A stretch of DNA of 32,960 nt from a virus. The stretch lies in IMG/VR virus record IMGVR_UViG_3300025151_000156, positions 1-32,960 of that record. The stretch is one strand, 5' to 3'. Below are positions 5,737 to 31,938 of the stretch, in pieces; the first letter of the stretch is position 1, and every line of letters begins with the position of its first letter. The translations under genes were made by a program, and so were the position numbers. A model generated the notes under the pieces. It was not told the DNA's origin. It made no database searches and saw nothing but the letters and a program-made list of their open reading frames with translations.

Positions 5737-7176
5737 ATGCGTTACAAATTTAAATACCAACCATACAAGCATCAATTAGATGCTTTGGAAAAGTCGTGGG
5801 ATAAAAACTTTTTTGCACTGTTTATGGATATGGGAACAGGCAAATCTAAAGTGCTTATAGATACGATTGCCATGCTGTATGATAAAGGCAAAATAGATTC
5901 TGCCCTTATTATCGCACCTAAAGGTGTATACAGAAACTGGGAACGTAAAGAGTTACCCACTCATTTACCTGACCATATTGAAGCAAACATTGTTGTATGG
6001 TCACCACAAAAAACTAAAAAGAAACAAGCAGAATTAGCTACACTAAATGAGCCGTCGGATAAACTGCAAATTTTCCTTATGAATGTAGAAGCGTTATCCA
6101 GTAGCAGAGGAGAATGGTTTGCCTCTAAATTTATATTGTGCCATAAAGCAATGCTTGCTGTAGATGAAAGCACCACTATTAAATCTAGAACAGCTAACAG
6201 AACTAAAAACCTGATAAAATTATCAAGGAACGCCCCATACCGTAGGATACTTACTGGCTCTCCTGTAACTAAATCACCATTAGATTTATATACACAATGT
6301 GAGTTTTTAGAACATTACATATTAGGTCACTCCTCATTTTGGACATTCCAAAACCGTTATGCTAAAATGATACGCAAAACAATGGGAGCGCACTCTTTTA
6401 ATCATATTGTAGGCTACCAAAATTTAGAAGAGTTAAATGGTATTATAGAACCTTTTTCGTTTAGGGTGCGTAAAGAAGATTGTTTAGATTTACCTGATAA
6501 AGTGTATACGCAACGCAGTGTAGAGTTAACGAAAGAGCAACGTGTTCTTTATGATCAAATGAAAAAGAACGCTATGTCTGTTATAGAAAACGAAGGCATT
6601 ATGTCTGCTCCTACAGTGCTTACTCAAATACTACGGTTACAACAAGTTTGTTCTGGGTTTGCTAAATTAGAAGATGGGAGAATAGTAAAAGTAGCTAACA
6701 ATAAACTGCCTGAGTTGTTATCTGTATTAGAAGAAACAGATGGTAAAGTTATTATCTGGGGTAATTTTACTTACGACCTAGAATTAATTCAGCAAGAGCT
6801 TATGAAAACATATGGTGCTGATTCAGTAGAACTATTTTATGGTAATACCCCTGCAGAACAACGACAGCTAATTGTTGAGCGGTTCCAAGACCCTGATGAC
6901 CCACTACGGTTTTTTGTAGGGCAACCAAGAACAGGAGGTTATGGGCTTACACTTACTGAAGCAAACACCGTTATATACTACAGTAACGGATACGATTTAG
7001 AAGTGCGGTTGCAAAGTGAAGATAGAGCGCATCGTATCGGGCAAACAAACAAAGTTACTTATATAGATATTACAGCAGAAGATACAGTAGACCAGAAAGT
7101 TATAAAAGCCTTACGGAGTAAGATAGATATAAGCACTACAGTATTAGCTGAAGGGTATAAAGAGTGGATAATTTAA
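5737..7176 (+). CDS. SNF2-type DEAD/DEAH superfamily 2 helicase/ATPase
   Basis: An ATP-driven DNA translocase of the SNF2 family. The N-terminal RecA-like lobe has a Q-type YQPYKHQLDAL (7-17), Walker A DMGTGKSK (31-38), motif Ia LIIAPKGVYRNW, Walker B AVDEST (141-146) and motif III LTGSP (172-176). The C-terminal lobe has VIIWGNF, the motif V region TGGYGLTLTEANTVIYY and motif VI QSEDRAHRIGQ (426-436), the hallmark of SNF2 proteins. It is 479 residues, the compact form common in phages, with no fused nuclease. The ATG follows AATAGAAAGAGGG at a good spacing. It starts the only rightward unit and overlaps the methyltransferase gene by 13 bases, so the two are co-expressed. It may act in replication, recombination or against host defence; the exact role is not visible. 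Confidence 0.92.
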   Translation: MRYKFKYQPYKHQLDALEKSWDKNFFALFMDMGTGKSKVLIDTIAMLYDKGKIDSALIIAPKGVYRNWERKELPTHLPDHIEANIVVWSPQKTKKKQAELATLNEPSDKLQIFLMNVEALSSSRGEWFASKFILCHKAMLAVDESTTIKSRTANRTKNLIKLSRNAPYRRILTGSPVTKSPLDLYTQCEFLEHYILGHSSFWTFQNRYAKMIRKTMGAHSFNHIVGYQNLEELNGIIEPFSFRVRKEDCLDLPDKVYTQRSVELTKEQRVLYDQMKKNAMSVIENEGIMSAPTVLTQILRLQQVCSGFAKLEDGRIVKVANNKLPELLSVLEETDGKVIIWGNFTYDLELIQQELMKTYGADSVELFYGNTPAEQRQLIVERFQDPDDPLRFFVGQPRTGGYGLTLTEANTVIYYSNGYDLEVRLQSEDRAHRIGQTNKVTYIDITAEDTVDQKVIKALRSKIDISTTVLAEGYKEWII

Positions 7177-7835
7177 TCCTAGGCGATAGCACTGTTGTAA
7201 TTAAAACATTTGCAAATGAACAGTTTGATATAGTGTTTACATCGCCTCCTTACAATAGAAAGAGGGATGATAAGTACGCTTCGTTTACAGATATTTATGA
7301 TGATTACTTTGATTTTCTTGTAGAATCTATAGAACAATGTTTACGAGTTTGTAAAGGTAATGTCTTTTATAATGTTCAGAAAAACTTTTACAATCGTGTT
7401 GAACTCTATAAATTGTTTGGGCATTTTGCAGAACAAATAATAGAAACAATTATTTGGAATAAATCTAATCCAACTCCGGCAGGTGGTGATGCCGTTACTA
7501 ATGCTTACGAATATATTTTAGTATTGAGTAATAATAATACCGCACTTAAAGGTAATGATACGTATACAAAAAATCATTTCTGTACACCTGTTTATTCAGA
7601 GAACCCTTACAAAGAACAACACAGAGCAGTGATGCACCCAAAGGCAGTAGAGTTTATTTTACGTTCGTTCTGTCACCCATACCAAAATGTACTTGACCCA
7701 TTTATGGGTACAGGGACAACAGGCGTTGTCTGTAAACAGTTTGGTATGGAGTTTACAGGCATTGAGTTAGTTGAGGAATATTACAATATATCTAAACAAC
7801 AACTCAGTAATTATACCCAAGCATTTTTACTTTAG
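7164..7835 (+). CDS. Beta-class DNA methyltransferase (N4-cytosine or N6-adenine)
   Basis: An S-adenosylmethionine-dependent DNA methylase of the N6/N4 family. Catalytic motif IV TSPPY lies at residues 26-30, and SAM-binding motif I DPFMGTGTT at 178-186, followed by FTGIELVEEYY. The order IV before I, with the presumed target-recognition region between them, defines the beta class. The SPPY form fits either N4-cytosine or N6-adenine methylation, so the target base is undecided. At 223 residues it is small. It starts with GTG, supported by GAAGGG eight bases upstream, and overlaps the SNF2-type gene by 13 bases. No restriction endonuclease partner is seen, so it is an orphan methylase that could mask restriction sites or mark phage DNA. 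Its stop overlaps the converging late operon's last stop by 3 bases. Confidence 0.9.
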   Translation: MDNLILGDSTVVIKTFANEQFDIVFTSPPYNRKRDDKYASFTDIYDDYFDFLVESIEQCLRVCKGNVFYNVQKNFYNRVELYKLFGHFAEQIIETIIWNKSNPTPAGGDAVTNAYEYILVLSNNNTALKGNDTYTKNHFCTPVYSENPYKEQHRAVMHPKAVEFILRSFCHPYQNVLDPFMGTGTTGVVCKQFGMEFTGIELVEEYYNISKQQLSNYTQAFLL

Positions 7836-13802: not shown

Positions 13803-15329
13803 TTAAAACTGCTCATTACCTGTAAAACTGTACGTTGGCCCTTGGTTTGCTCCTCCTCGTTGATTAGGGTATCCTGGAGAATTAAACTGCAATTTATCCA
13901 TTTGTTGAAACATTTGTTCTCGGGTGGGAGCGTTAAACTCCATTGGGGAAGGCACGCTCCTATCTGGACGTGTACCTGTTGCATCACTTGTATCATATGG
14001 GTTTTTATTGATATTCCCTGTGTACATATTATACAATGTATTTAAAATCCCTAATGGATTAATAGTAGGAACAGCAGAAAATTGTTGTGCCATATTAGGC
14101 AGATCAGCGATTAATTGTTGCACACTATCATAACCTGTTCCGGTAGGACCTCCTAAACTAATTTGATCTGCTCCACCAGTCCCATCCGCATTTATACTAG
14201 AAGAAGGTGCTTGCCTGACAATATCAAGAAAATCTTTTACTTGTCTATCTGCATATGTATCACCTGCTCCTGTTATACCTAATTGATCATATGCTCGTAA
14301 TATCCCCTCTGTCCCTCCAGCTACCCCAAACATAGTTTCACCACTGGCATTCGGATTATACGCATAACTAATTATTTCATCCACTCGTCCAGGAAGTTTA
14401 TCTTCATTAGTGCTACCATAGTTACGATCGATTAACCTATCACGTAAATTAACATTTATATCACCAACAAGGTCGTATATATCACCAATAGTATTTGCTC
14501 CAGTGTAAAACTCTGGTCGTAATTCACCTTGGGTTCCTGGATCATCCATATCTCGCGTGTTTGCTAATATTGTAGCAAAAGCAAGCATCCGTGGGTCAAT
14601 CTGCACAGAAGATATACCCTCTGTTGAACGTCTTAAAGAAGGTAATCTGGTTACTTCTTCCTGCATTAAAGATCTGCCATTATCGGCATAACCTGCTACT
14701 TGCCTACCTTCGTTCATTCCATAATCACGGAAATGTTCTCTTGCAGTATTTTCTACAACTCTTTGAAACTCTGTTCCAGGACTTAAACCTGTTGCCCGTG
14801 CTGTACGGACAGCATGATCTAATACTGCAGGATTTGCTGCAAGATAGCCTTGTACAACAGCACTTGATTGATATTGATTATCAGCGTTTACTTCTCCACC
14901 TTCTGCAAAATTTTCTCCTTGCTCTATATCGCCAATAGGCACTAAAGGTACTAACTCATTATTAGTTGGCGGAGGCGTAACCATACCTGTTGAACCAGTT
15001 GGTGCATCGCGTTCTTGTATTAATTCTTCTCTTCGCTCTGGTGATAAACCAAAAGTATCACCTAACCTTGGCGTTAATAAACCCCCAAGGAATGTCCGTC
15101 CACCATATGCCCTGCCTTCTGGCTGACCATGGAAAGCATAATGTAATTCTGCATCGCGCTCTATTTGCGCTTGCCTTGCTAAACCCTGCAACCCTCTTGC
15201 TTCAGCATTAGCTATAGACGCATTAAATACATCTGGGTTTTGTGCCATATATCGTAAAGCAGGAGATAAATATACCGAACCGCCTCTGTTAAATTTAGCT
15301 ACAAACATGGGTCTGTTAAGAGGATTCAT
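13803..15329 (-). CDS. Internal virion protein with two NPxV...EGR modules, 508 aa
   Basis: A structural protein by context. It carries two copies of a helical module. Copy 1 covers residues 20-73 (YLSPALRYMAQNPDV ... HYAFHGQPEGR). Copy 2 covers 160-209 (GYLAANPAV ... HFRDYGMNEGR). From memory, the YLAxNPDV...HYxxxGxxEGR pattern also occurs as repeats in bacterial secreted RTX-type proteins, so it is probably a small protein-binding module. A GGxV motif stands before each copy (RGGSV at 15-19, EGGEV at 143-147). The rest is Gly/Asn/Asp-rich with a Pro-rich linker at 117-135. AGGA lies six bases before the ATG. It is third of the three genes that precede the two giants in the operon, and a DNA-ejection role is inferred, not seen. 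Confidence 0.65.
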   Translation of the reverse strand: MNPLNRPMFVAKFNRGGSVYLSPALRYMAQNPDVFNASIANAEARGLQGLARQAQIERDAELHYAFHGQPEGRAYGGRTFLGGLLTPRLGDTFGLSPERREELIQERDAPTGSTGMVTPPPTNNELVPLVPIGDIEQGENFAEGGEVNADNQYQSSAVVQGYLAANPAVLDHAVRTARATGLSPGTEFQRVVENTAREHFRDYGMNEGRQVAGYADNGRSLMQEEVTRLPSLRRSTEGISSVQIDPRMLAFATILANTRDMDDPGTQGELRPEFYTGANTIGDIYDLVGDINVNLRDRLIDRNYGSTNEDKLPGRVDEIISYAYNPNASGETMFGVAGGTEGILRAYDQLGITGAGDTYADRQVKDFLDIVRQAPSSSINADGTGGADQISLGGPTGTGYDSVQQLIADLPNMAQQFSAVPTINPLGILNTLYNMYTGNINKNPYDTSDATGTRPDRSVPSPMEFNAPTREQMFQQMDKLQFNSPGYPNQRGGANQGPTYSFTGNEQF

Positions 15330-18733: not shown

Positions 18734-19027
18734 TCATACTGTAACTGTTACCGAACCTACATTTCCTGTTGCGCTAACACCTCTAGGATGCGAACGGTTA
18801 ATTGTTACTATTTTAACAAATCCATCTTGTTGAAAAAGAGCGCCTGTTTCTAATCCAAACGCATCTTCTTGTAATGCAGTAAGAGTCAAATTTGTATTTC
18901 TGCCTTCTCCAGGACTCAAAAACTGTTGTATAAATACCTGAAACGTTCGCACAACAGAGTTTGCATAATCTTGTTTATACTCTGCAGGGGCAACAGGAAA
19001 TTGTGGGGGTGGTAAAATCCTCGCCAT
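18734..19027 (-). CDS. Small conserved virion-associated protein (97 aa)
   Basis: I do not recognise a named family. The first 13 residues are Pro-rich (MARILPPPQFPVAP). A helical segment follows (DYANSVVRTFQVFIQQF), and the C-terminal half is beta-rich (FVKIVTINRS, GSVTVTV). No Cys, signal peptide or membrane span. The ATG shares one base with the stop of the tail-hub gene (TAATG), so it is translationally coupled to it and may be a partner, plug or assembly factor of the hub. That role is a guess from coupling only. Confidence 0.7.
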   Translation of the reverse strand: MARILPPPQFPVAPAEYKQDYANSVVRTFQVFIQQFLSPGEGRNTNLTLTALQEDAFGLETGALFQQDGFVKIVTINRSHPRGVSATGNVGSVTVTV

Positions 19028-20952
19028 TACCTACGGCCATCTGGTCTTATATCTACTCTTGGCGAGCCTAGCCTCCATCCTGCTGCTAAATCAGTAGAAG
19101 AAACTTTTAATGCAAACGACCTACCTCGTAATCTTACATGCACTAAATCTGTAAATTGCTCTACAGTAGTGGTGCTTTCTGCTACTGTTTGTGTGACTGT
19201 ACTAGGGTCATTTTGTGTATACGCACTTCCAGGACCTGCTCTAGTTTGCAAAGTAAACAGAGCAGAGGGAGAACTATTTGTAGAGTTTCTAAATGTAATA
19301 TCGGGTATAAGACGGTGAACAAAAGTAAATTGATCACCATCACCTATATCAAATTGACTAGACTCTATATGTGCAGCAAGAGCAGAAGCTGGTTCTGTAC
19401 TACCATCATCAAAACCATTTTCATGGTCATATACATAATGATCTGTTCCAACACTGACGGGGTATTGTTCTATACCCCTATCTAACCAAGCTGTTCTAGC
19501 TAATGAACCTGTATACCAAATTTGTTGTTCGTAATTGTAAATAACGTATTTATCATTTTCATCACTTGCCTCGGAAGGATAAAACCACCAAATTTCTGCA
19601 AATGAAGAGTTCAGCCCAGAAGCTATTTTTCTACCTTGACTCCAATTTAAATCTGAAAATACATGGTCGCGCACACTACACGGCATTCTTTGAACTGTGC
19701 CTGTGTACACATAAAATTCATTTTTACCCATCCAATACACTGTATCTTGTACAGATGTAACAGCAAGAGGTCCTGCAATAGTGGTATTATCTGCTATTGT
19801 ACTTAAACCAAAAGTAAAAGGAGGCCCTATAAATTGCATCGCATGTAAACTGGTTTCAGTAAAAATAAGTATTTGTTGGCGTGTTTCAACTGCTTTTATA
19901 ATTTCAGAACCAACACCAAGTTTTAAATCACCTGCGGTATTAGTAGCTGTAGAGGCCCAATCTGTTAAACTTCCTTGGTCTGCAAACCTTATAAGCAGAG
20001 GATCTTGCACACCAATATTATCAGCAGGGTCACAACCAAATGCAATAACATGTCTATCTACATCTGATACAAGCACTTGTTTTGCTATTGTAGGTGCAGA
20101 GGTAGAACCTGATAAAGAATTTAATAAAACTGCTCTGTTTGCTGTTGTACCAGATTTATCCCAATAAGCGATTTGCCCATCTCTTACATTTAGCAGTAAA
20201 TCTTCACCAAAGTTATCATGTGACCAAATTCGTAAATTATTTGTACTTACTGCTACATCTGCATCAGAGTTCCAAGTGCCTCTTCCATATGCTCCTGCGT
20301 TCCAACCGACTCCTGGAACGGCAACATCTATACCTACATTTACTTGATACTGTGCTACGGTTGATCCTCCACCATTACCTGTATCACTACCGTTTGCAGT
20401 TACCGGAGTAGGATTTAAACCACTTGTAGTTGTTATGGATGCTATTGTTGTTCCTGCTGTTCTAGCTTGTATAGTAAAAGTGTTGCTGGTTGGAACAGAA
20501 ACAATTTGATATTCTTGATTTAGAACAGCAGCAGTTATATTACCGCCTAGAGAAACAGCAGAGGAAAATGTAACAAAATCGTTTATTACCGCTCCATGAT
20601 CAGTATCAGTAACTGTTATTGTAGAAGAACCATTTGTAGCTGCAAAAGTAGCTTCTCCTGTAACAGTAGAGCGCACAGGCGTTATATCAAAAAAAGATTG
20701 ACCCACTAATAAATAGTATTTAAGGTGTGTGCCTATACCAATAAATGTTCCACCATCTAATGCTGTCCAATTATGTAAAGCTCTTGCAGAACCAAGAATA
20801 GCTTCTGTAGATTTTTTTAGCCAACCACCAATTTTTTCAGCATAACCTGCTCTGAATCGTACTTTGTCTGAATCAAACCAACCACCCTCATTACTATAAG
20901 AAGTGGTTTCTTTATTAATCCCAGGACGAAAATTTAACTTAGTTAAGGGCAT
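19027..20952 (-). CDS. P22 gp10-like DNA stabilisation / tail hub protein, 641 aa
   Basis: Recognised as the phage stabilisation-protein type: a beta-propeller-like protein that closes the tail tube beneath the adaptor ring in short-tailed phages. Family-like segments are the start MPLTKLNFRPGINKETTSYS, SDKVRFRAGYAEKIGGW (28-44), RHVIAFGCDPADN, the core LLIRFADQGSLTDW through LKLGVGSEIIKAVETRQQ, then YWMGKNEFYVYTG and FAEIWWFYPSE. Residues about 97-205 look like a separate inserted beta domain (FAATNGSSTITVTDTDHG ... ASDTGNG-type end), similar in pattern to FCCH-like domains found inserted in phage proteins. The C-terminal 100 residues are beta-rich. The gene is flanked by the propeller genes and the internal virion genes, as expected for a hub. 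Confidence 0.7.
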   Translation of the reverse strand: MPLTKLNFRPGINKETTSYSNEGGWFDSDKVRFRAGYAEKIGGWLKKSTEAILGSARALHNWTALDGGTFIGIGTHLKYYLLVGQSFFDITPVRSTVTGEATFAATNGSSTITVTDTDHGAVINDFVTFSSAVSLGGNITAAVLNQEYQIVSVPTSNTFTIQARTAGTTIASITTTSGLNPTPVTANGSDTGNGGGSTVAQYQVNVGIDVAVPGVGWNAGAYGRGTWNSDADVAVSTNNLRIWSHDNFGEDLLLNVRDGQIAYWDKSGTTANRAVLLNSLSGSTSAPTIAKQVLVSDVDRHVIAFGCDPADNIGVQDPLLIRFADQGSLTDWASTATNTAGDLKLGVGSEIIKAVETRQQILIFTETSLHAMQFIGPPFTFGLSTIADNTTIAGPLAVTSVQDTVYWMGKNEFYVYTGTVQRMPCSVRDHVFSDLNWSQGRKIASGLNSSFAEIWWFYPSEASDENDKYVIYNYEQQIWYTGSLARTAWLDRGIEQYPVSVGTDHYVYDHENGFDDGSTEPASALAAHIESSQFDIGDGDQFTFVHRLIPDITFRNSTNSSPSALFTLQTRAGPGSAYTQNDPSTVTQTVAESTTTVEQFTDLVHVRLRGRSFALKVSSTDLAAGWRLGSPRVDIRPDGRR

Positions 20953-20965
20953 TATAAAAAACTCA

Positions 20966-22414
20966 TTACTCTTTCACTATAAGTTCCGTTGCAGATATAG
21001 CTGTCCCTGCAAAAACACTTGTACTATCTGCTGTCAATCCGAGTGTACCGTCCCCCTGCACAAAATATTGTTGTCCTGCTGTAAGAGATGTTTGATCAGC
21101 ATTAACTGTCCCTACAACATCAACAGTTACACTTTGTCCATCTGCATATGATCCACCTGTTGCTATACCAATGTAATTTTCTGTGGTTATGTTTTGGGAA
21201 GCGTTTCTTAATATTCTTGCAGTGCCATCATCTCCATCACCTGCATCTTTATATGAAATAACTGTTCTTTCTGCGTTGCTATCATAACCTAAACCAATAT
21301 ACTCTGTGTTAGTGTTAAATGTAGCAGGTGTATTGAAACTGATGGAATTACTAGAACCAACAGTTCCTATGACATATGTACCAGCATTACTATTATCTAC
21401 ATCTCTATACGCTATGACCACCACTCCAGCGGAAGCATCAAACACTGCATCAATGTATTGATTATCAGCAGATGCAAAAACGACAGGTGTACCAAGGCTA
21501 TTAAACTCTGTATTGTTTACGTCACCCACCACTGCTGTACCGTAGCTACTATTGCTATCATCGTGATATGCCATCACGATTCTTTGATTAGTGCTATCGT
21601 ATGCTAAACCTACGTAATCGCCACCAGTAACAGATACTCGTATCTCACTACCAAAACTTATAGATGTTCCTGATACAGTACCTACACACAAACTAGGATA
21701 ATAACTATTACCTAAATCAATATAGCCAAAAACAACCCTTTGTTGATCGCTATCATAAACACACCGAGGAAAATGTGTATTTGCATTATTAAATACAACA
21801 GGAGTGCCAAACGATATAGATGTACCGCTTACTGTTGCTACAACAGCAGTGCCATGACCACTGTTACCAAAGTCAGTATAACTGATAACAACTTTGTTAG
21901 TGCTACTATCGAAGCAAGCATCTATATATACAGCGTTGTTAGTCGTAAAAGTAGCTTCCGACCCAAAACTGATGCTGTTATCGCTAGGGTCTACAGTGCC
22001 AACTACTGCCTTACCTTTGTTACTATCTGTCGTATCTCTGTAAGCTATAACAATTTTGTTAGAGTTTGAATCAAAAGCTATACCATAAAATTCTGCTTCA
22101 CCTGATGAATCAAAAGCAACAGTAGTTCCAAATGTTACAGATGTACCACTTACTGAACCGACGGTTGCTGTTCCATTACTATTACTTCCATTTTTATGTG
22201 CAATAACAATTCTATTACTATTACTATCAAATGCCACACGATTGTAGTTAGATGCATCACTTGAATATTCTGTTTCAGAACCAAGTGATAATGTAGTTTC
22301 TGCAACTGCGCTCACCGTTCCTGCACTATTTGCTATGACAGGCTTACCATTAGCTATAGCACCAGATGCGATTGCTCTGTATTTACCTTTTTCTGTTGGT
22401 GGTACTGTACGCAT
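20966..22414 (-). CDS. Seven-repeat beta-propeller tail protein, copy 3 (482 aa)
   Basis: Residues about 44-395 consist of exactly seven imperfect repeats of about 52 residues. Each has the pattern (V/T)F...(I)AFDS(N/S)xNKxVIAYxD, then (G)TAVVGTVSG, then TSISFGTPV. The count and length fit a seven-bladed beta-propeller, probably a receptor-binding domain of a tail fibre or spike. The N-terminal cap (RAIASGAIANGKPVIANSAG, 13-32) and C-terminal cap (NITTENYIGIATGGSYADG, then LTAGQQYFVQGDGTLGLTAD and ATELIVKE) are shared with the two neighbouring paralogues, so caps and propeller are separate modules. Blade 4 (with PRCVYDSDQQRVVFGYIDLG) and blade 7 are the most divergent. AAGG lies seven bases before the ATG; the gap to the previous paralogue is 2 bases. 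Confidence 0.75.
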   Translation of the reverse strand: MRTVPPTEKGKYRAIASGAIANGKPVIANSAGTVSAVAETTLSLGSETEYSSDASNYNRVAFDSNSNRIVIAHKNGSNSNGTATVGSVSGTSVTFGTTVAFDSSGEAEFYGIAFDSNSNKIVIAYRDTTDSNKGKAVVGTVDPSDNSISFGSEATFTTNNAVYIDACFDSSTNKVVISYTDFGNSGHGTAVVATVSGTSISFGTPVVFNNANTHFPRCVYDSDQQRVVFGYIDLGNSYYPSLCVGTVSGTSISFGSEIRVSVTGGDYVGLAYDSTNQRIVMAYHDDSNSSYGTAVVGDVNNTEFNSLGTPVVFASADNQYIDAVFDASAGVVVIAYRDVDNSNAGTYVIGTVGSSNSISFNTPATFNTNTEYIGLGYDSNAERTVISYKDAGDGDDGTARILRNASQNITTENYIGIATGGSYADGQSVTVDVVGTVNADQTSLTAGQQYFVQGDGTLGLTADSTSVFAGTAISATELIVKE

Positions 22415-22416
22415 AT

Positions 22417-23853
22417 TTAGCCTTTCACCAATAATTTAGTAGCAGTAACCGCTGTTCCTGCTGTTACAGAGGGGGTATCTGCAGTTAGGGCGATTGTGCC
22501 ATCTGTTTGAACAAAATACGTTTGCCCTGCGGTCAACCCTGTTTGATTTTCGTCTAATGCACCTTGCGTATTAATAAGGATTTTAGCACCATCTGCTACT
22601 GAATGTTCTGAAAAACCAACAAAGTTTTCTGAGGAAAGACTTGCAGTTCCTAAAGTTAAAACATATGCGGTTCCATAATAACTATTACCTGAATCGTTAT
22701 GTGCAACCACCAATTTATTATTAGAACTATCAAAAACTACAATAGAATGCGCTCCTCCTGTATCTGTATCTATAATAAAATCACTTCCAAAAGTAATACT
22801 ATTACCACTCACAGTTCCTGTTACTACACTAAACCCACCATTAGAGTTTACTATAACTATTTTATCGTTAAAAGGATCATACGCAATACCTACATAAGAT
22901 GCAGCATTTCCTGATGCTGGAGTATCAAAATTGATAGCGTCTCCAAAACTTATAGAAGTTCCAGATACTGTTCCTACCCTTGCTTCTCCTACATTAGAAC
23001 TACCTGAATTTGCATAGGCAACTATTGTTTTTTGTTGATCAGGGTCATATGCGTTTGCCATATAATTTGCAACTGCTGACGAGGTAAAAGTTGTTGCACT
23101 TCCAAAACTTATACCTGTACCCGACACTGTTCCTACAATTCCAGTACCATAGTTGCTATTATCTGTATCCGTATACGTTATTACAATTTTGTTGTTTGTG
23201 CTATCAAATGACAATGAAATGTTGCTAGAACCAGCACTTTCAAATACGGTAGCTGTACCGAAACTAATACTTGTTCCGCTTACAGTGCCTACTACAGCAG
23301 TTCCATAGTTACCACTACCAGCATCTCTGTATCCAATAACAACTTTATTAGAGTTTGAGTCAAACGTAGCCCCTTGAGGATAATTTAAAGGTTGAGCAGC
23401 CCATTGTGCCTCACTTCCAAGACTAATGCTTGTACCGCTAACAGTGCCAACTTTAGCCTTTCCCACGCCACCTCTTCTATAAAGTAAAACTACTTTATTT
23501 GAGTCTGAATCAAATACAACATTAGGTTCAATAACATTCGATTCTATCGTAACAGGCGTTCCATAACTTATAGATGTACCTGATACTGTTCCCACAATTA
23601 CTAAACCATCATTATTGCTACCATTTCCATATGCAATAATAACTTTATTGTTAGAGCTATCAAAAGCCATGTTTATATAATTTGTTGGATTAACACTTTG
23701 AAACACAGCTGCTGATCCTACACTATCAGGATTAGGGACACTCACAGTTCCATCAGTATTTACAATAACAGGTTTTCCAGCAGCAGATATCGCACCACTG
23801 GCAGTAGCGGTTATCTCCCTAGGTAATAGAGGATTATTACCAATTACACGCAT
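22417..23853 (-). CDS. Seven-repeat beta-propeller tail protein, copy 2 (478 aa)
   Basis: Residues about 47-400 are seven imperfect repeats of 48-55 residues of the AFDSSNNKVIIAYxxx / VGTVSGTSISYGTPV type, fitting one seven-bladed beta-propeller. Caps match the paralogues: N-terminal ITATASGAISAAGKPVIVN (13-31) and C-terminal LSSENFVGFSEHSVADG (406-422) followed by LTAGQTYFVQTDGTIALTAD and ATKLLVKG. The caps recall modules from memory in marine phage tail proteins, where different middle domains occur. Blade 6 is altered (VGIAYDPFNDKIVIVNSNGG) and lacks the usual GTA strand. It is probably a virion receptor-binding or decoration protein. It follows the 87-aa gene after 8 bases with a weak ribosome binding site. 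Confidence 0.75.
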   Translation of the reverse strand: MRVIGNNPLLPREITATASGAISAAGKPVIVNTDGTVSVPNPDSVGSAAVFQSVNPTNYINMAFDSSNNKVIIAYGNGSNNDGLVIVGTVSGTSISYGTPVTIESNVIEPNVVFDSDSNKVVLLYRRGGVGKAKVGTVSGTSISLGSEAQWAAQPLNYPQGATFDSNSNKVVIGYRDAGSGNYGTAVVGTVSGTSISFGTATVFESAGSSNISLSFDSTNNKIVITYTDTDNSNYGTGIVGTVSGTGISFGSATTFTSSAVANYMANAYDPDQQKTIVAYANSGSSNVGEARVGTVSGTSISFGDAINFDTPASGNAASYVGIAYDPFNDKIVIVNSNGGFSVVTGTVSGNSITFGSDFIIDTDTGGAHSIVVFDSSNNKLVVAHNDSGNSYYGTAYVLTLGTASLSSENFVGFSEHSVADGAKILINTQGALDENQTGLTAGQTYFVQTDGTIALTADTPSVTAGTAVTATKLLVKG

Positions 23854-23861
23854 GGGCTATC

Positions 23862-24125
23862 TTACTCTTCTTCTCTTGGATCAACAAAATTTTCGTTTGC
23901 AGACCATGTGGTACCGTCAAACTTATACTTGTTGCCGTACCAATCTGAAGGTGCGTTATCTACATCTTCATGTAAAGTTGCATTGCCACTGTTAAGATCA
24001 CCTATATAAAAATCTACAGGGTCACTACCTACAGTGATTTTATCAGAAGCCATGCTGACTGCTTTATCGTCAGCGAGTAAGTATTTTGATATTTTAGTTG
24101 AGTTTTCTATTATTGTTTTTGCCAT
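23862..24125 (-). CDS. Small conserved tail-associated protein (87 aa)
   Basis: A short acidic protein starting MAKTIIENSTKISKYLLADD and ending in PREEE. Midway it has FYIGDLNSGNATLHEDV and a C-terminal GNKYKFDGTTWSANENF. From memory, small proteins of this pattern are common beside marine phage tail genes; I know no function. It lies between propeller copy 1 and copy 2, with GAAAGG seven bases before the ATG and 3- and 8-base gaps on either side. Position suggests a chaperone, adaptor or collar for the propeller fibres. Confidence 0.7.
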   Translation of the reverse strand: MAKTIIENSTKISKYLLADDKAVSMASDKITVGSDPVDFYIGDLNSGNATLHEDVDNAPSDWYGNKYKFDGTTWSANENFVDPREEE

Positions 24126-24128
24126 AAT

Positions 24129-26708
24129 TTATCCTTTCACAATTAAATCAGTAGTTCCTATGGCTGTACCAGCAACAACAGAGGGAGAATCTGCAGTTTC
24201 TTTTACTGTTCCGTCTGTTTGTACAAAATATTGCTGTCCTATAGTGAGGTTTTGTAATACTCCACCAGTTGGGGCTAACGTGATACCTTTACCTTTATTG
24301 CTGTCACTACTATCTCTAAAAAATATAACAGATCTATTTTCATTACTATCAAAGGTAGCTGAATTATATAAAGTAGTTCCTTCATTAAAGGTAGTTGCAG
24401 AGGTAAACGAAATAGACGTATCCGAAACGGTTCCTAAAACATATTTTCCATAATCGTTGTCATCATCATCATAATAAGCGATAACTGCTTTATTTACATT
24501 ACTATCAAAAGTAATTGCTATATCTTCTGTACCAGCAGCTTCAAATACTGCGGCAGAACCAAAACTTATGGAGGTTCCGCTTACAGTTCCTACGATAGCC
24601 GTACCATGTCCACTGTTGCTCGCATCCCTATAGGAAATAATTACTTTATTGTTTGAACTGTCAAAAACTATGCCTACATTTGTTGTACTGCCAGACTCAA
24701 ACACCACTGCTGTTCCGAAACTTATATCTGTGCCAGATATTGTACCGACAATAGCTGTGCCATAACTACTATTTCCTGCATCATGGTACGCAACGACTAC
24801 TTTGTTATTACTACTATCAAACGCACATTCAATATGTTGGGTGTCTGCACTTTCAAAAGTTACTTCTGTGCCAAAAGTTATAGATGTGCCTGATACAGTG
24901 CCTACTCTTGACTTGCCATGCCCGCCACCTGAGTATAAATCTCTATATACGATAGCAACTTTATTACTATTAGTATCAAAAGTAGCTGCATTATTGCTAG
25001 TGCCACTAGAGGAATCATATGTGGCAGCAGTGCCGAAACTGATTGAGTTGTTAGATGGATCTACAGTTCCTACACTCGCTTGGCTTATTTCACTAGAGGC
25101 TTGGTTAGTATAGACAACAACAACTTTATTATTACTACTGTCAAAAGTTGCACCAAAGGCAAGGAGATTTGCACTTTGGATAACTACCGGAGTGCCGAAT
25201 GTAATAGTTGAACCACTTACTGACCCAACACAAGCAGTCCCATAAGATGAGTTGTTTACATCTTGATAAAAAACAACTACCCTATTATTAGAACTATCAA
25301 ATGTTGCAAAAGTACCCTCACCGCCTTCGCCCACTTCGCCAGTTTCAAAAACAGTTTCTGATCCAAGCACATCAGAAGTATTAGGTGTCTGTATACTTCT
25401 AGCTATACTGTTAGCACTCTGTATTGTGGCTACTGCACCATCTGCAACAGCATCTTTTGCAAAGCCTATAAAGTTTTCTGATGTAAGGTTTGCACTTGAT
25501 GGGTTATAAACTATTGCAGAAAGATTATTTGATGGAGCAAATCCAGCAACAATCTTTTCATCATTGACTGTAGTTCCATAAATAAAAGTAACTGCTGTAG
25601 AATCAAGTTCTGTTGAAGAACCAAAAGTAATAGTAGTCCCTGATGTTGATCCTTTTATTGCAGCAGGTTTAAGATCATCATTTAAATAAGCAACAACAAA
25701 ATCATTTTCAGTAAACTTTGTTACAGAGGGCCATACATTACTTTCATCACTGGCTCTAAATACTACAGGTGACCCTAAAGTTATGCTAGTGCCTGATACC
25801 GTTCCCGCGATAGCTGTAGCATAGTTGTTTCCAGTTCTATCATCATTGTAGGCTATGACAAACTTGGTATCACTTAATGCTGCAAGTGAATGCCTTATAA
25901 CTCTACTGGCATCATACTGTACAGCAGATCCGAATGATATAGAAGTACCCGATACTGTGCCTACAATAACTTCGCCATCTTCTGGTGGAGAGCTCGGAGT
26001 ATCTGAATAAGCTATAACAATTTTAGTTGAACTTAATGCACCTATTGAAGCATACTTAGAAGAGTTTGCTGTAGCAAAAGTTGCAGGAGAACCAAAAGAC
26101 AAACTTGTACCTGATACTGTTCCTACGATTGCTTTAGCTTTACTGCTATCAGAGGCGTCTTCAAAAGCAATTACAAATGTTGTGTCAGTTAAACGAGCAG
26201 CATTACCAAAGTCGTTCATGCTTGTTTGACCTGCTTCAAACTCAGCAACGCTTCCATAAGTAATACTGTTATCTGATGCGTCTACTGTGCCAAGCCTAGC
26301 CTTACCTTTATTTGAGTCACCACTATCTCTATATACAATTACAAACGTGGTGGAAGTTAAGCCAAGCACATCAAAGTTTTCATACTGTGCGTGTGATGTA
26401 GAAGATGCACTGCCATAAGAAATAGATGAACCTGAGACTACACCTACTATTGCTGTTCCATAATAACTATTATCTTGATCACGAGCAAAACCAACAAATT
26501 TTGAAACTCCGGGCAATCCTGTTAAATAAGGCCCACCGACGTTACTATTGAAACCCATATCAGCTACACTGCCAATACTAGCAGAGGAAATAGCCGTGGT
26601 AGCAACCGTACCATCAGAGTTAATTATAACTGGCTTACCTGCCGTTATAGCACCATCAGCAGTTGCTACTACCTCTGAGTCAGAAGCTATATTTCCAACA
26701 ACCCTCAT
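24129..26708 (-). CDS. Double seven-repeat beta-propeller tail protein, copy 1 (859 aa)
   Basis: The protein holds two sets of seven ~52-residue repeats. Set A is residues about 45-405 and is more divergent, with blades such as LTSTTFVIVYRDSGDSNKG. Set B is about 446-815 with blades such as FDSSNNKVVVAYHDAGNSS and GTAIVGTVSGTSISFG. The N-terminal cap (EVVATADGAITAGKPVIIN, 12-30) and C-terminal cap (LTIGQQYFVQTDGTVKETAD and LIVKG) match the two paralogues. The cap strand ENFIGFAKDAVADGAVATIQ lies between the sets at 411-430, not next to the final cap, so set B seems inserted inside the C-terminal cap. The likely role is host recognition on the tail. AAGGGATG precedes the ATG; the gap to the previous gene is 9 bases. 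Confidence 0.75.
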   Translation of the reverse strand: MRVVGNIASDSEVVATADGAITAGKPVIINSDGTVATTAISSASIGSVADMGFNSNVGGPYLTGLPGVSKFVGFARDQDNSYYGTAIVGVVSGSSISYGSASSTSHAQYENFDVLGLTSTTFVIVYRDSGDSNKGKARLGTVDASDNSITYGSVAEFEAGQTSMNDFGNAARLTDTTFVIAFEDASDSSKAKAIVGTVSGTSLSFGSPATFATANSSKYASIGALSSTKIVIAYSDTPSSPPEDGEVIVGTVSGTSISFGSAVQYDASRVIRHSLAALSDTKFVIAYNDDRTGNNYATAIAGTVSGTSITLGSPVVFRASDESNVWPSVTKFTENDFVVAYLNDDLKPAAIKGSTSGTTITFGSSTELDSTAVTFIYGTTVNDEKIVAGFAPSNNLSAIVYNPSSANLTSENFIGFAKDAVADGAVATIQSANSIARSIQTPNTSDVLGSETVFETGEVGEGGEGTFATFDSSNNRVVVFYQDVNNSSYGTACVGSVSGSTITFGTPVVIQSANLLAFGATFDSSNNKVVVVYTNQASSEISQASVGTVDPSNNSISFGTAATYDSSSGTSNNAATFDTNSNKVAIVYRDLYSGGGHGKSRVGTVSGTSITFGTEVTFESADTQHIECAFDSSNNKVVVAYHDAGNSSYGTAIVGTISGTDISFGTAVVFESGSTTNVGIVFDSSNNKVIISYRDASNSGHGTAIVGTVSGTSISFGSAAVFEAAGTEDIAITFDSNVNKAVIAYYDDDDNDYGKYVLGTVSDTSISFTSATTFNEGTTLYNSATFDSNENRSVIFFRDSSDSNKGKGITLAPTGGVLQNLTIGQQYFVQTDGTVKETADSPSVVAGTAIGTTDLIVKG
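24264..25373 (-). repeat. Seven tandem ~156-bp coding repeats, propeller B of the double gene
   Basis: Seven consecutive degenerate units of about 52 codons. The most uniform blades read FDSSNNKV(V/I)(V/I)(A/S)Y then (A/R)VGT(V/I)SGT(S/D)I(S/T)FGT. Blades 4 and 5 are the most alike. Such internal repeats offer substrate for recombination with the equivalent blocks in the two genes downstream. Confidence 0.65.
25494..26576 (-). repeat. Seven tandem ~156-bp coding repeats, propeller A of the double gene
   Basis: Seven units with the same strand pattern as propeller B but lacking the FDSSNNK turn, which is replaced by L(T/S)(S/D)T(T/K)F or similar. The GTVSGTSISFGS strand is kept in most blades, while blades 6 and 7 are degenerate (IKGSTSGTTITFG; APSNNLSAIVYN). 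Confidence 0.6.
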
Positions 26709-26717
26709 TTACATCCC

Positions 26718-27092
26718 TTACGACAGTTCTTCGTATGTGATTGTATATGTTAAATCGTTAGCTACACTTGCAGTAACACCAAGGGATGTATCTTCTTCTA
26801 AATACATTCCAACATCTTTATCTATTGCTATTAAAAATGAGTTAGGTGCTACAGACACTGCATTTGCATACACGACTGCTGTACCTCCTATATCATCTTG
26901 TGGGTATATACCTATAGTTATTGTAGCTGATGCTGAAGCATCCACATTTGATATTACTAAACTGTTTACTTTCATTACTTTACCAGAAGAAGCAGGGTTA
27001 TTTAAAGCATTAGTAGCTGCTGTAGATGAAAGTAAAGCTGTATCTGTCTTTGCCGTAATAGTGGCGACATTGACAATATTAGGTGCTGCCAT
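26718..27092 (-). CDS. Small beta-rich virion protein (124 aa)
   Basis: I do not recognise a named family. The protein is Ala/Thr/Val/Ser-rich and looks all-beta (VMKVNSLVISNVDASASATI; NDLTYTITYEEL), with a mid segment LIAIDKDVGMYLEEDTSLGV. Composition and position between a fibre-like gene and the propeller genes suggest a tail or fibre-attachment structural protein. GAGGA precedes the ATG at about 11 bases. No Cys, transmembrane segment or signal peptide. Confidence 0.7.
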   Translation of the reverse strand: MAAPNIVNVATITAKTDTALLSSTAATNALNNPASSGKVMKVNSLVISNVDASASATITIGIYPQDDIGGTAVVYANAVSVAPNSFLIAIDKDVGMYLEEDTSLGVTASVANDLTYTITYEELS

Positions 27093-27109: not shown

Positions 27110-27976
27110 TTAACCGAAAACCATAGCCATTGCAATCGCTTTTCCTGTGCTTGCTTTACTGGTCACCGCATTTATTTCTGCTGCTGTAACAGTAACTAGA
27201 GTAGAACCTAATACTAATCCATTACTACCATCATGCGAAGCAATAGTAAAATTGTTTGTACCATCAGCTATGGTTGCATTTCCGCTAAATGTGGAATTTC
27301 CTGTTATAAGAAGAGTGTCTGTCCCATCTTCATCATACTCTATACTTACATCTTGATCATTACCAAATTTAATTTTCTTATCATCTGCAATGTAAACATC
27401 ACCCCACTCTAAAGAAGTTGTCCCTATATCAGCTCCTCCAGAAGCATCAGGCACAAGAGCAGTTGAAGCAGTAATAGTTGTTCCAGAAATAGTACTTGCA
27501 CCTGTAATAGCTCCTGCAACATCAAGCGTTCCTGCAACACTTAAATCGGTAAAAGCATCGTAAACAATACCACTAGCACCACCACCATCTGTAACAACTA
27601 CCTTTACTTTGCCATTGGGGATAGTAACTGTCGCTCCACTGCCTTGTTTTATAATCGTAGAGTAAGGGCCACTAGAACCTGAATCTGTGGTAGCATTTTC
27701 AATTATCCATATTTTAGAAACAGTGTTCGGGGCAAGAGTAACTGTACAGTTTTGCCCTAATGCACCAGTAAGTTTAAGATAAAAGGATCTTACACCGTCA
27801 GAAACCGCATCTGCCATTGTAATCGTAGCTGTAGAAGCATCACTTAATGCTTCCGTGCCATAACCAAAAGCCTCACCTATCAGCTCTAAATTTGTGTTTG
27901 TTGCAGTTCCCCACGTTCCTGAACGCTCACCAGAACCTATTTCTTCTAAACGTAAATTATTTACATATGTACTCAT
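27110..27976 (-). CDS. Tail fibre-like protein (288 aa)
   Basis: A Gly/Ser/Thr/Ala-rich protein with fibre features. The N-terminal part (MSTYVNNLRLEEIGSGERSG, TWGTATNTNLELIGEAFG) is what I recall from marine phage tail fibre starts, with the pattern of a bundle-forming attachment domain. The middle has beta-helix-like runs DLSVAGTLDVAGAITGAST and ISGTTITASTALVPDASGG, then DIGTTSLEWGDVYIADDKKI, a motif seen at fibre shafts, and GNSTFSGNATIADG. The C-terminus is a helix ending IAMAMVFG. A complete receptor-binding tip is not evident, so it may be a shaft or adaptor fibre that works with the propeller proteins downstream. AAGGAG sits five bases before the ATG, a strong site. Confidence 0.7.
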   Translation of the reverse strand: MSTYVNNLRLEEIGSGERSGTWGTATNTNLELIGEAFGYGTEALSDASTATITMADAVSDGVRSFYLKLTGALGQNCTVTLAPNTVSKIWIIENATTDSGSSGPYSTIIKQGSGATVTIPNGKVKVVVTDGGGASGIVYDAFTDLSVAGTLDVAGAITGASTISGTTITASTALVPDASGGADIGTTSLEWGDVYIADDKKIKFGNDQDVSIEYDEDGTDTLLITGNSTFSGNATIADGTNNFTIASHDGSNGLVLGSTLVTVTAAEINAVTSKASTGKAIAMAMVFG

Positions 27977-29174: not shown

Positions 29175-29468
29175 TTAGAGTCTCCTTATCAGTTCAGCTA
29201 GTTCTGGGTGTCCTGCGTCTACTAAAGCGTTAAAAACTGTCGTTCTATCACTTTGTACAGCTTGTTTCATGTAAGAGGCAATCACTTTTTCAATATGTGC
29301 AGCAAAGGCATGGGCTTGATCTCGTATTGCAGGTTCTGCTTTATCGGATACATAAACGAGTTTTTTTACACATCTTGCAGCTATTTCTTCGGGGCTTGCA
29401 CCTCTATTATTAGTCGTATGCACCTCAACTTGAAAGTCGCTTGGTAAACTTAGAGTATCTGTAAACAT
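29175..29468 (-). CDS. Small helical phage protein (97 aa)
   Basis: Predicted to be largely helical. After a short beta start (MFTDTLSLPSDFQVEVHTTN) it has GASPEEIAARCVKKLVYVSD, then EPAIRDQAHAFAAHIEKVI and SYMKQAVQSDRTTVFNAL, ending LAELIRRL. From memory, the QAVQSDRTTxxNALxxAGHPxLAELIR ending is a frequent small protein in marine phage structural operons; its function is unknown. A tail-assembly chaperone is possible but not evident. The ATG shares one base with the stop of the upstream adaptor gene (TAATG), so it is coupled to it. Confidence 0.7.
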   Translation of the reverse strand: MFTDTLSLPSDFQVEVHTTNNRGASPEEIAARCVKKLVYVSDKAEPAIRDQAHAFAAHIEKVIASYMKQAVQSDRTTVFNALVDAGHPELAELIRRL

Positions 29469-30322
29469 TACGTTCTTTCTTTCTTAATATAACCTGCAGA
29501 ATAATCATCTGTAACTTCTAATGCCTCGCCTAAATTTTTCAAGCGATTAATTGCTTCCCCATACCGTTGATTGTACATATTCATTACATCTTGCTCACCT
29601 TTCATAAAAAGGTAACACTCAGCAAGTGAAGCATATAAAAGAGCCACCTCAGCGTTTTCACTTAACCAACTATTTGTTGTATCTGCACCAACGGCAGTGA
29701 TTACAGCAGTCGCACCACTTGTACCGCCTGTTATTGTTTCACCAACAGTATAATTTTGACTTGGTATGCCAACGGTCAAACTGGTAGCACTTTCAACGAC
29801 CCCTATGGTTGAGCTTTGTCCGCTTGTACCGCCAGTGATAGTTTCACCAACAACAAATGTCCCTGATACTGTACTCAGAGTTAATAGATATAAACTTTGC
29901 GTTAAGCTGGTAGGTCTATGAAAATAACTTAGACTAACTGTATATGTCGCGTCGGGGGTGGGAGCTAGAATAAAATAGTTAGCATCAAATTGTCCATAGT
30001 ATTTCGGGGTACCTGTTGCCGAAGCATTAGGATTGTATGATTGCACAAACTCAAGTTCTTTAAATTGTAAATACTCATACAAGCTATTGTTCGTAATACT
30101 TAGTGAGTGAGGTGATAAAAAATCACTAGGAACAGCTAGGTACTCACTTCCTAACAAAAGTGTTCCCGTCACATTTTTTTGAAATACGTTTAATTGAGTT
30201 GATTTTAAAATACGCTCTTCTGCTAAACGAATAAACATATCCATAGAATTAAGGAAAACTGTTTCTGTATTTTGCGTGTAGTTTTTGATAGCATCTTTGA
30301 GAGTACTGTATGTGAAACTCAT
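29468..30322 (-). CDS. Phage adaptor (neck) protein, SU10/phiEco32-type (284 aa)
   Basis: Recognised as an adaptor that links portal to tail hub in short-tailed phages. Family-like parts are the start TYSTLKDAIKNYTQNTETVF (residues 4-23), MFIRLAEERILKSTQLNVFQ (29-48), EYLAVPSDFLSPHSL (60-74), YYGQFDANYFILAPTP (108-123) and the helical C-terminus EVALLYASLAECYLFMKGE. Between the strand LSYFHRPTSL and this C-terminus, residues 154-211 are an insertion made of two GETITGGTSG repeats that do not belong to the core fold. The same repeats occur in the 300-aa protein two genes upstream. GGAGG lies about 10 bases before the ATG, and the ATG overlaps the zinc-ribbon gene's end by 4 bases. Confidence 0.75.
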   Translation of the reverse strand: MSFTYSTLKDAIKNYTQNTETVFLNSMDMFIRLAEERILKSTQLNVFQKNVTGTLLLGSEYLAVPSDFLSPHSLSITNNSLYEYLQFKELEFVQSYNPNASATGTPKYYGQFDANYFILAPTPDATYTVSLSYFHRPTSLTQSLYLLTLSTVSGTFVVGETITGGTSGQSSTIGVVESATSLTVGIPSQNYTVGETITGGTSGATAVITAVGADTTNSWLSENAEVALLYASLAECYLFMKGEQDVMNMYNQRYGEAINRLKNLGEALEVTDDYSAGYIKKERT

Positions 30323-31530: not shown

Positions 31531-31938
31531 TTAACTGTAAGGGCCTTTGACTACACCGCCTTTAGCCATCTTTTTAACACGACCTCCACGGCTCATCTTT
31601 TTAGGCATGGAAACCTTGCCACCATTACGCATTTTCATCATGGAGACTTTACCGCCACGCTTCATTTTCTTAGGCATAGATACTTTACCGCCCATCATCA
31701 TTTTCTTTGGTTTTTTCACTTCTCCGCCCTCTCTTTTTTTGATTGGTTTTTTCTTTGGTTTAGGTGGTGTGTCTTCTTTCACAGGCCCATTTCGTTTAGC
31801 TTGCTTGCGTAGATATTCAGCTGTTTCGGGGTCTTCACCCCTACGTACTTTTTCGCCAAGCTCTTTCATATCTCTACGAAACCTTGCCTCTTTAGCATCT
31901 CTAGGCTTGGGTGGTTTTTTTGCTGGTTTTTTTGCCAT
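31531..31938 (-). CDS. Very basic Lys/Met/Gly repeat protein (135 aa)
   Basis: Extremely rich in Lys and Arg, with Pro in the N-terminal part (MAKKPAKKPPKPRDAKEARF). A charged helix (RDMKELGEKVRRGEDPETAE) precedes the C-terminal half. From residue 71 to 130 the protein is a degenerate repeat of about 12 residues centred on GGxV: GGEV, GGKV, GGKV, GGKV, GGRV and GGVV at 71, 83, 95, 106, 118 and 127, separated by KKM-type basic stretches. Such composition suggests DNA condensation or binding to virion DNA or negatively charged protein, but no known fold is recognised. AAGGAGG lies five bases before the ATG, an almost ideal site. Repeat count could vary between related phages. Confidence 0.75.
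   Translation of the reverse strand: MAKKPAKKPPKPRDAKEARFRRDMKELGEKVRRGEDPETAEYLRKQAKRNGPVKEDTPPKPKKKPIKKREGGEVKKPKKMMMGGKVSMPKKMKRGGKVSMMKMRNGGKVSMPKKMSRGGRVKKMAKGGVVKGPYS
31549..31728 (-). repeat. Six degenerate ~36-bp coding repeats (GGxV units)
   Basis: Six consecutive units of about 12 codons, each containing GG[E/K/R/V]V, with the spacing 12, 12, 11, 12 and 9 residues. Units two to five read approximately GGKVSMPKKMKR. The repeats code for the basic C-terminal half of the 135-aa protein. Confidence 0.7.

Follow-up and report, generated by a model that had tools for sequence, protein, structure and literature searches.

Genes at the propeller locus

The stretch of DNA analysed here, referred to as the window, comprises 32,960 nucleotides of IMG/VR record IMGVR_UViG_3300025151_000156 and contains three neighbouring propeller genes, A, B and C, all on the minus strand (Table 1). 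An earlier note on this DNA, made from the sequence alone, had described the range from 20966 to 26708 as three tandem paralogues. The paralogues are present, but a separate 87-aa gene lies inside the same range. No tRNAs were found in the window.

Table 1. Propeller genes of the window and their neighbours; propeller folds are predicted
Feature	Position	Strand	Remarks
641-aa tail hub-type protein, downstream of cluster	19027..20952	-	phrog_3287, E 1.9e-66
Gene A, 482 aa: frame plus one predicted seven-bladed propeller	20966..22414	-	7 units; frame ends conserved relative to contig L001
Propeller of gene A	about 21212-22288		
Gene B, 478 aa: frame plus one predicted seven-bladed propeller	22417..23853	-	7 units; AlphaFold2 model
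Propeller of gene B	about 22651-23718		
87-aa gene accompanying the propeller genes	23862..24125	-	Beside nearly all propeller clusters
Gene C, 859 aa: frame plus two predicted seven-bladed propellers in two loops	24129..26708	-	14 units; model pLDDT 83
Propellers of gene C, first then second	about 25491-26576 and 24270-25370		
124-aa gene, usually immediately upstream of cluster	26718..27092	-	Synteny in most propeller loci
288-aa fibre-like protein, longer in relatives without propellers	27110..27976	-	phrog_31104, E 1e-17
Tail adaptor-like protein, upstream of cluster	29468..30322	-	PF24175 SU10_adaptor, E 7e-22

The cassette is flanked by adaptor-like genes and a fibre-like gene on one side and by the hub gene on the other; tblastn to isolated podophages finds homologues of the hub-type protein annotated as 'stabilization protein'. 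In the related genome G003, about 8 kb separate the capsid gene from the cassette downstream of it. Locus L202, whose hub is 89% identical, has no propeller in this slot. In its place are a 668-aa protein with a match to a tail-fibre family and a tail-fibre assembly chaperone; the fibre-like gene of this locus is longer than that of the window and matches tail fibre families. Across loci, the fibre-like protein has a median length of 298 aa where propellers are present and 481 aa where they are not. The 87-aa protein is related to the N-terminal part of gp48, a tail-fibre assembly chaperone protein of Lentibacter phage vB_LenP_ICBM2 (tblastn, 42%) that also carries Phage_tail_APC (E 1e-18). 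In ICBM2, gp48, with both parts fused in one protein, is encoded next to a propeller gene, and the authors of that genome termed the region tail fibres. Gene context therefore favours the tail over the head as the probable location of these proteins, and the earlier placement on a phage tail gains support from the slot between the fibre-like and hub genes.

Repeat units and predicted fold

A hidden Markov model of the repeat unit gives 7, 7 and 14 (7+7) units in the 482-, 478- and 859-aa proteins, the same seven per set that had been counted by eye. Self-comparison against shuffled sequences peaks at a period of 52 residues in the 482-aa protein (11.5 s.d.), at 105 (8.5 s.d.) and 53 (5.4 s.d.) in the 478-aa protein, and at 54 (4.7 s.d.) and 52 (14.1 s.d.) in the first and second halves of the 859-aa protein, so all sets show a period of 52-54 residues or twice that. 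Two details of the first description need correction: the units, given there as ~52 residues, vary between about 48 and 54, and the proteins do not divide wholly into seven units, as about 115 residues of each are not blade. One weak point is unit 7 of the first set in the 859-aa protein: the seed model gives it -1.6 bits, and it can be counted safely only with the family model. In the consensus, the final 'SGTSISFGxxV' strand is missing from the last unit of each set and a 'GSxxVF' strand precedes unit 1, the pattern that ring closure by the N-terminal strand should produce. Among ORFs from 79 related IMG/VR loci, collected by homology, complete sets hold 7 units (n=111) or 14 (n=33); counts of 6 or 8 are rare, and most of them can be put down to edge effects, for instance a partial hit near residue 19. 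The requirement of a closed ring would explain a count fixed at seven or twice seven. Column entropies in the blade peak immediately before strand A.

The AlphaFold2 model of gene B, built with 76 relatives in the alignment, has a pLDDT of 92.3 and a pTM of 0.87. Its best solved structural matches, by VIA-align, are E. coli YncE (residues 44-401; Z 32.4, rmsd 2.6 over 307 residues) and the Photorhabdus PLL/PHL lectins (about residues 58-402; Z 30-32 over about 310 residues). The model of gene C contains two propellers, the first of which (residues 40-406) aligns to a double-propeller chain with Z 28.6 and the second (residues 447-813) to YncE with Z 33.2; the best Foldseek match of this protein is Elp2. 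Overall, the predicted models align to closed seven-bladed rings with four-stranded blades at Z 28-33. It is well supported at the level of structure prediction that genes A-C encode four closed seven-bladed propellers, in agreement with the fold first proposed for them; neither of the outcomes that the earlier note had named as refuting, a β-helix or a unit count other than seven, was found. Searches of the whole proteins against Pfam and PHROGs returned no significant family, and neither gene B nor the family alignment nor the frame gave a relevant match in PDB sequence searches. Only 8 loci were found among 84,980 cellular species genomes, all of them on metagenome-assembled genome (MAG) contigs, so there is no clear cellular homologue among them.

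Some relatives depart from the usual arrangement. Locus L020 (775-11850) carries six tandem paralogues of about 600 aa with seven blades each and differing N-terminal parts of ~165 residues, and L175 (7439-14491), on a contig assigned to a Euryarchaeota MAG bin, encodes a 2350-aa protein of 28 units, or four propellers, with a relative of the 87-aa gene alongside. In L117 (8090-9991), a propeller has six blades about 81% alike, and a 127-aa frame without a propeller lies nearby. Blade amplification is a known source of new propellers (PMC9218822). L117 may represent a young amplification with an empty socket, or else assembly collapse; because of the latter possibility we left it out of the evidence.

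A cement-like frame around the propellers

The picture of these proteins as propellers only had overlooked a second domain. Each protein contains a separate frame of ~115 residues, about 40 N-terminal and 75 C-terminal, and the propeller is an insertion in one of its loops. The second propeller of gene C interrupts a loop further along the same frame. L040, L008 and L055 carry a propeller at a site different from both, so several loops can accept one. The frame becomes visible in profile searches only when its halves are joined with the propeller omitted. Joined in this way, the gene B frame scores 29.3 bits against Pfam Phage_cement (cut-off 27; E 1.1e-6). Among 22 frames searched, 18 match XM1 gp53, 16 Phage_cement and 14 Phage_cement_2, mostly weakly, and any other family recurs in at most 4; most frames other than that of gene B, and the bare frame of L117 as well, fall below the Phage_cement cut-off. 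Searches against PHROGs match head-decoration families (best E 9.1e-7). No match to E217 gp24 homologues was obtained with hhalign, and PF22758 found nothing above its cut-off in the genomes of relatives, a search in which a split frame would hide a match. In sequence, the frame can be called cement-like rather than an established cement protein.

These matches, of which that of gene B passes the cut-off, speak for the view that the frames are true head cement proteins and the propellers auxiliary adhesins spread over the capsid, like Hoc or head fibres elsewhere, and host adhesion by decoration proteins is indeed known (PMC7602432). However, the cluster is found among the tail genes, some 8 kb away from the capsid gene in G003; tail-fibre genes take its place in L202; and an annotated tail-fibre protein that has a collar domain includes a relative of the frame. 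Together with the lack of an hhalign match to E217 gp24 homologues, this makes capsid decoration unlikely in our assessment.

Fixed gene positions and exchanged propellers

Three frame genes are present in 29 of 33 intact clusters with at least two, a set that includes some near-identical contigs; the exceptions are L020 (six), L063 (four), L117 (two) and L027 (two). When the frames of 22 non-redundant loci are clustered, all 12 multi-member classes keep a single position, whereas shuffles reach at most 7 (p<5e-5). The three genes are position-specific paralogues common to the group.

Frames of the same class share a mean identity of 80%, whereas their propellers share 41%, against 38% between classes. 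Across 21 genomes, propeller identity is 44.0% within a genome and 43.6% between genomes, and the nearest relative of a propeller is at the same position in 35 of 80 cases (26.6 expected, p 0.05), only a slight excess. The near-twin contig L001 is the clearest case: 15 of its 17 other shared proteins are 92-100% identical to those of the window and the remaining two 86% and 77% (dS 0.03-0.43), whereas the three propeller proteins are 54-62% identical (dS 0.8-1.5) and the propellers alone about 30-64%. Taken per 20 residues, frames are mostly 65-100% and blades mostly 25-75% identical, and the differences extend over about 1 kb and stop at the frame. Between these close relatives, the propeller proteins are far more divergent than the adjacent structural genes.

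Other pairs are informative about how such differences arise. The double protein of L055 and L040 has a first propeller that is 88-100% identical and a second that is 16-64% identical; one of the two propellers has been replaced. Proteins L038_2 and L028_1 have blades 86% alike and frames only 64% alike, with synonymous differences of 0.33 and 0.56, respectively, so a head has moved between frames. Propellers of L018_3 and L055_2b are 90% alike though at different positions. Five comparable pairs give pN/pS values of 0.25-0.55 in the blades, with no excess of amino-acid change; as all five are below 1, replacement rather than fast point change explains most of the diversity. The earlier note had suggested looking for positive selection on the blades, and these values give no direct sign of selection for change. 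Its proposal of tandem duplication followed by diversification needs amending: the genes are position-specific paralogues, and their propellers differ chiefly because entire propellers have been replaced or exchanged.

Most of the apparent exchange could be an artefact if short reads of related strains had been misjoined through the repeats, given that the close relatives are all metagenome contigs, that motifs such as VSGTSISFG recur and that L117 may be one such case. Yet the position-specific frame order is kept in 22 of 22 loci, the differences cover about 1 kb and end at the frame, and unit counts remain 7 or 14, so we consider this explanation very unlikely.

Discussion

We think it probable that genes A-C of this short-tailed marine phage encode receptor-binding heads that can be exchanged on conserved sockets. 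They would be surface adhesins in which a small conserved frame anchors each protein at its own fixed place on the tail, and the one or two complete propellers held in the frame loops would serve as heads, probably glycan-binding, that recognize surface glycans or proteins. If the propeller is replaced as a whole and the frame is kept, a new head would come to sit on a fixed socket, which could change the host. We infer that the proteins are present in the virion and attached to the tail, that the frames trimerise, that the heads bind the host surface and that host range drives the exchange. If so, a single virion would display several kinds of head. A bolder form of this idea, possible but doubtful, is that the A, B and C frames build one heterotrimeric socket of cement-protein descent, now on the tail, which presents several heads at once, drawn from a shared pool by exact whole-propeller exchange; each lineage would then display its own combination of heads. 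That the propellers are instead enzymes, for example glycan-cleaving ones, is very unlikely. Sialidases do occur in a Foldseek list of many propellers and phage endosialidases are propellers, but their ring is six-bladed where seven blades are found here, and the sialidase rows lie below the lectin and YncE rows in TM-score, with none in the top 50 by Z.

Among the closest known counterparts of genes A-C is gp49 of ICBM2 (AYP28108.1, 'hypothetical protein'), which, judged by a structure comparison that covers nearly its full length (A0A3G2YRE6; TM 0.77, 24% identity), has the same frame-plus-propeller architecture. ICBM2 is an isolated phage with Lentibacter sp. SH36 as its laboratory host, and its propeller gene likewise adjoins a relative of the 87-aa gene, but it has one propeller gene rather than three, the sequences are distant, and the ICBM2 paper never describes gp49 as a propeller. 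Receptor-binding protein Gp45 of Staphylococcus phage phi11 also has a propeller head (PMC4901313), but with five blades, a single head type, a homotrimer with a helical stem and no cement-like frame. According to its citation in the same paper, phiKZ gp131C is a seven-bladed propeller at the baseplate edge, proposed to bind receptors; we liken it to genes A-C by that description, although it is a single domain. The Photorhabdus PLL/PHL lectins have the seven-bladed ring that is predicted here, at about 10% identity, and are known to bind sugars, but they are free bacterial lectins. Cement proteins (PF22758, PF09956; E217 gp24) resemble the frame in profile once the propeller is omitted; the frame here differs in being split by propellers, in its tail-region setting and in having no hhalign match to E217 gp24 homologues. 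Finally, the nozzle protein of phage SU10 places a seven-bladed propeller in a podovirus tail (PMC9509320), but there it forms a structural hexamer that lines the tail channel; in the window, such a role suits the neighbouring hub gene rather than genes A-C.

Propellers in phage receptor-binding proteins and the replacement of fibre tips (PMC10386132) are already known. The known swaps concern C-terminal fibre tips, whereas here a whole closed propeller is apparently exchanged in the middle of its holder, at three parallel positions. Our search of the published open-access literature turned up no account of propellers inserted in cement-like frames at three fixed positions. If confirmed, the system would amount to a natural collection of seven-bladed binding domains whose borders are conserved, would allow host-range change in uncultivated marine phages to be read from sequence alone, and would provide a test case for the origin and spread of new propellers.

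Other observations in the window

After the propeller proteins, the most divergent product of the window is a 508-aa protein (13803-15329), which is 77% identical to its L001 counterpart among neighbours at 92-100% and 48% identical to that of L009, and which has weak similarity to the family of an adjacent 904-aa protein. Helicase-like and methyltransferase-like genes at 5737-7835 are on the plus strand, whereas the rest of the window is read from the minus strand. A 135-aa gene at 31531-31938 contains a 36-bp tandem repeat (31639-31707), and its length varies among close relatives.
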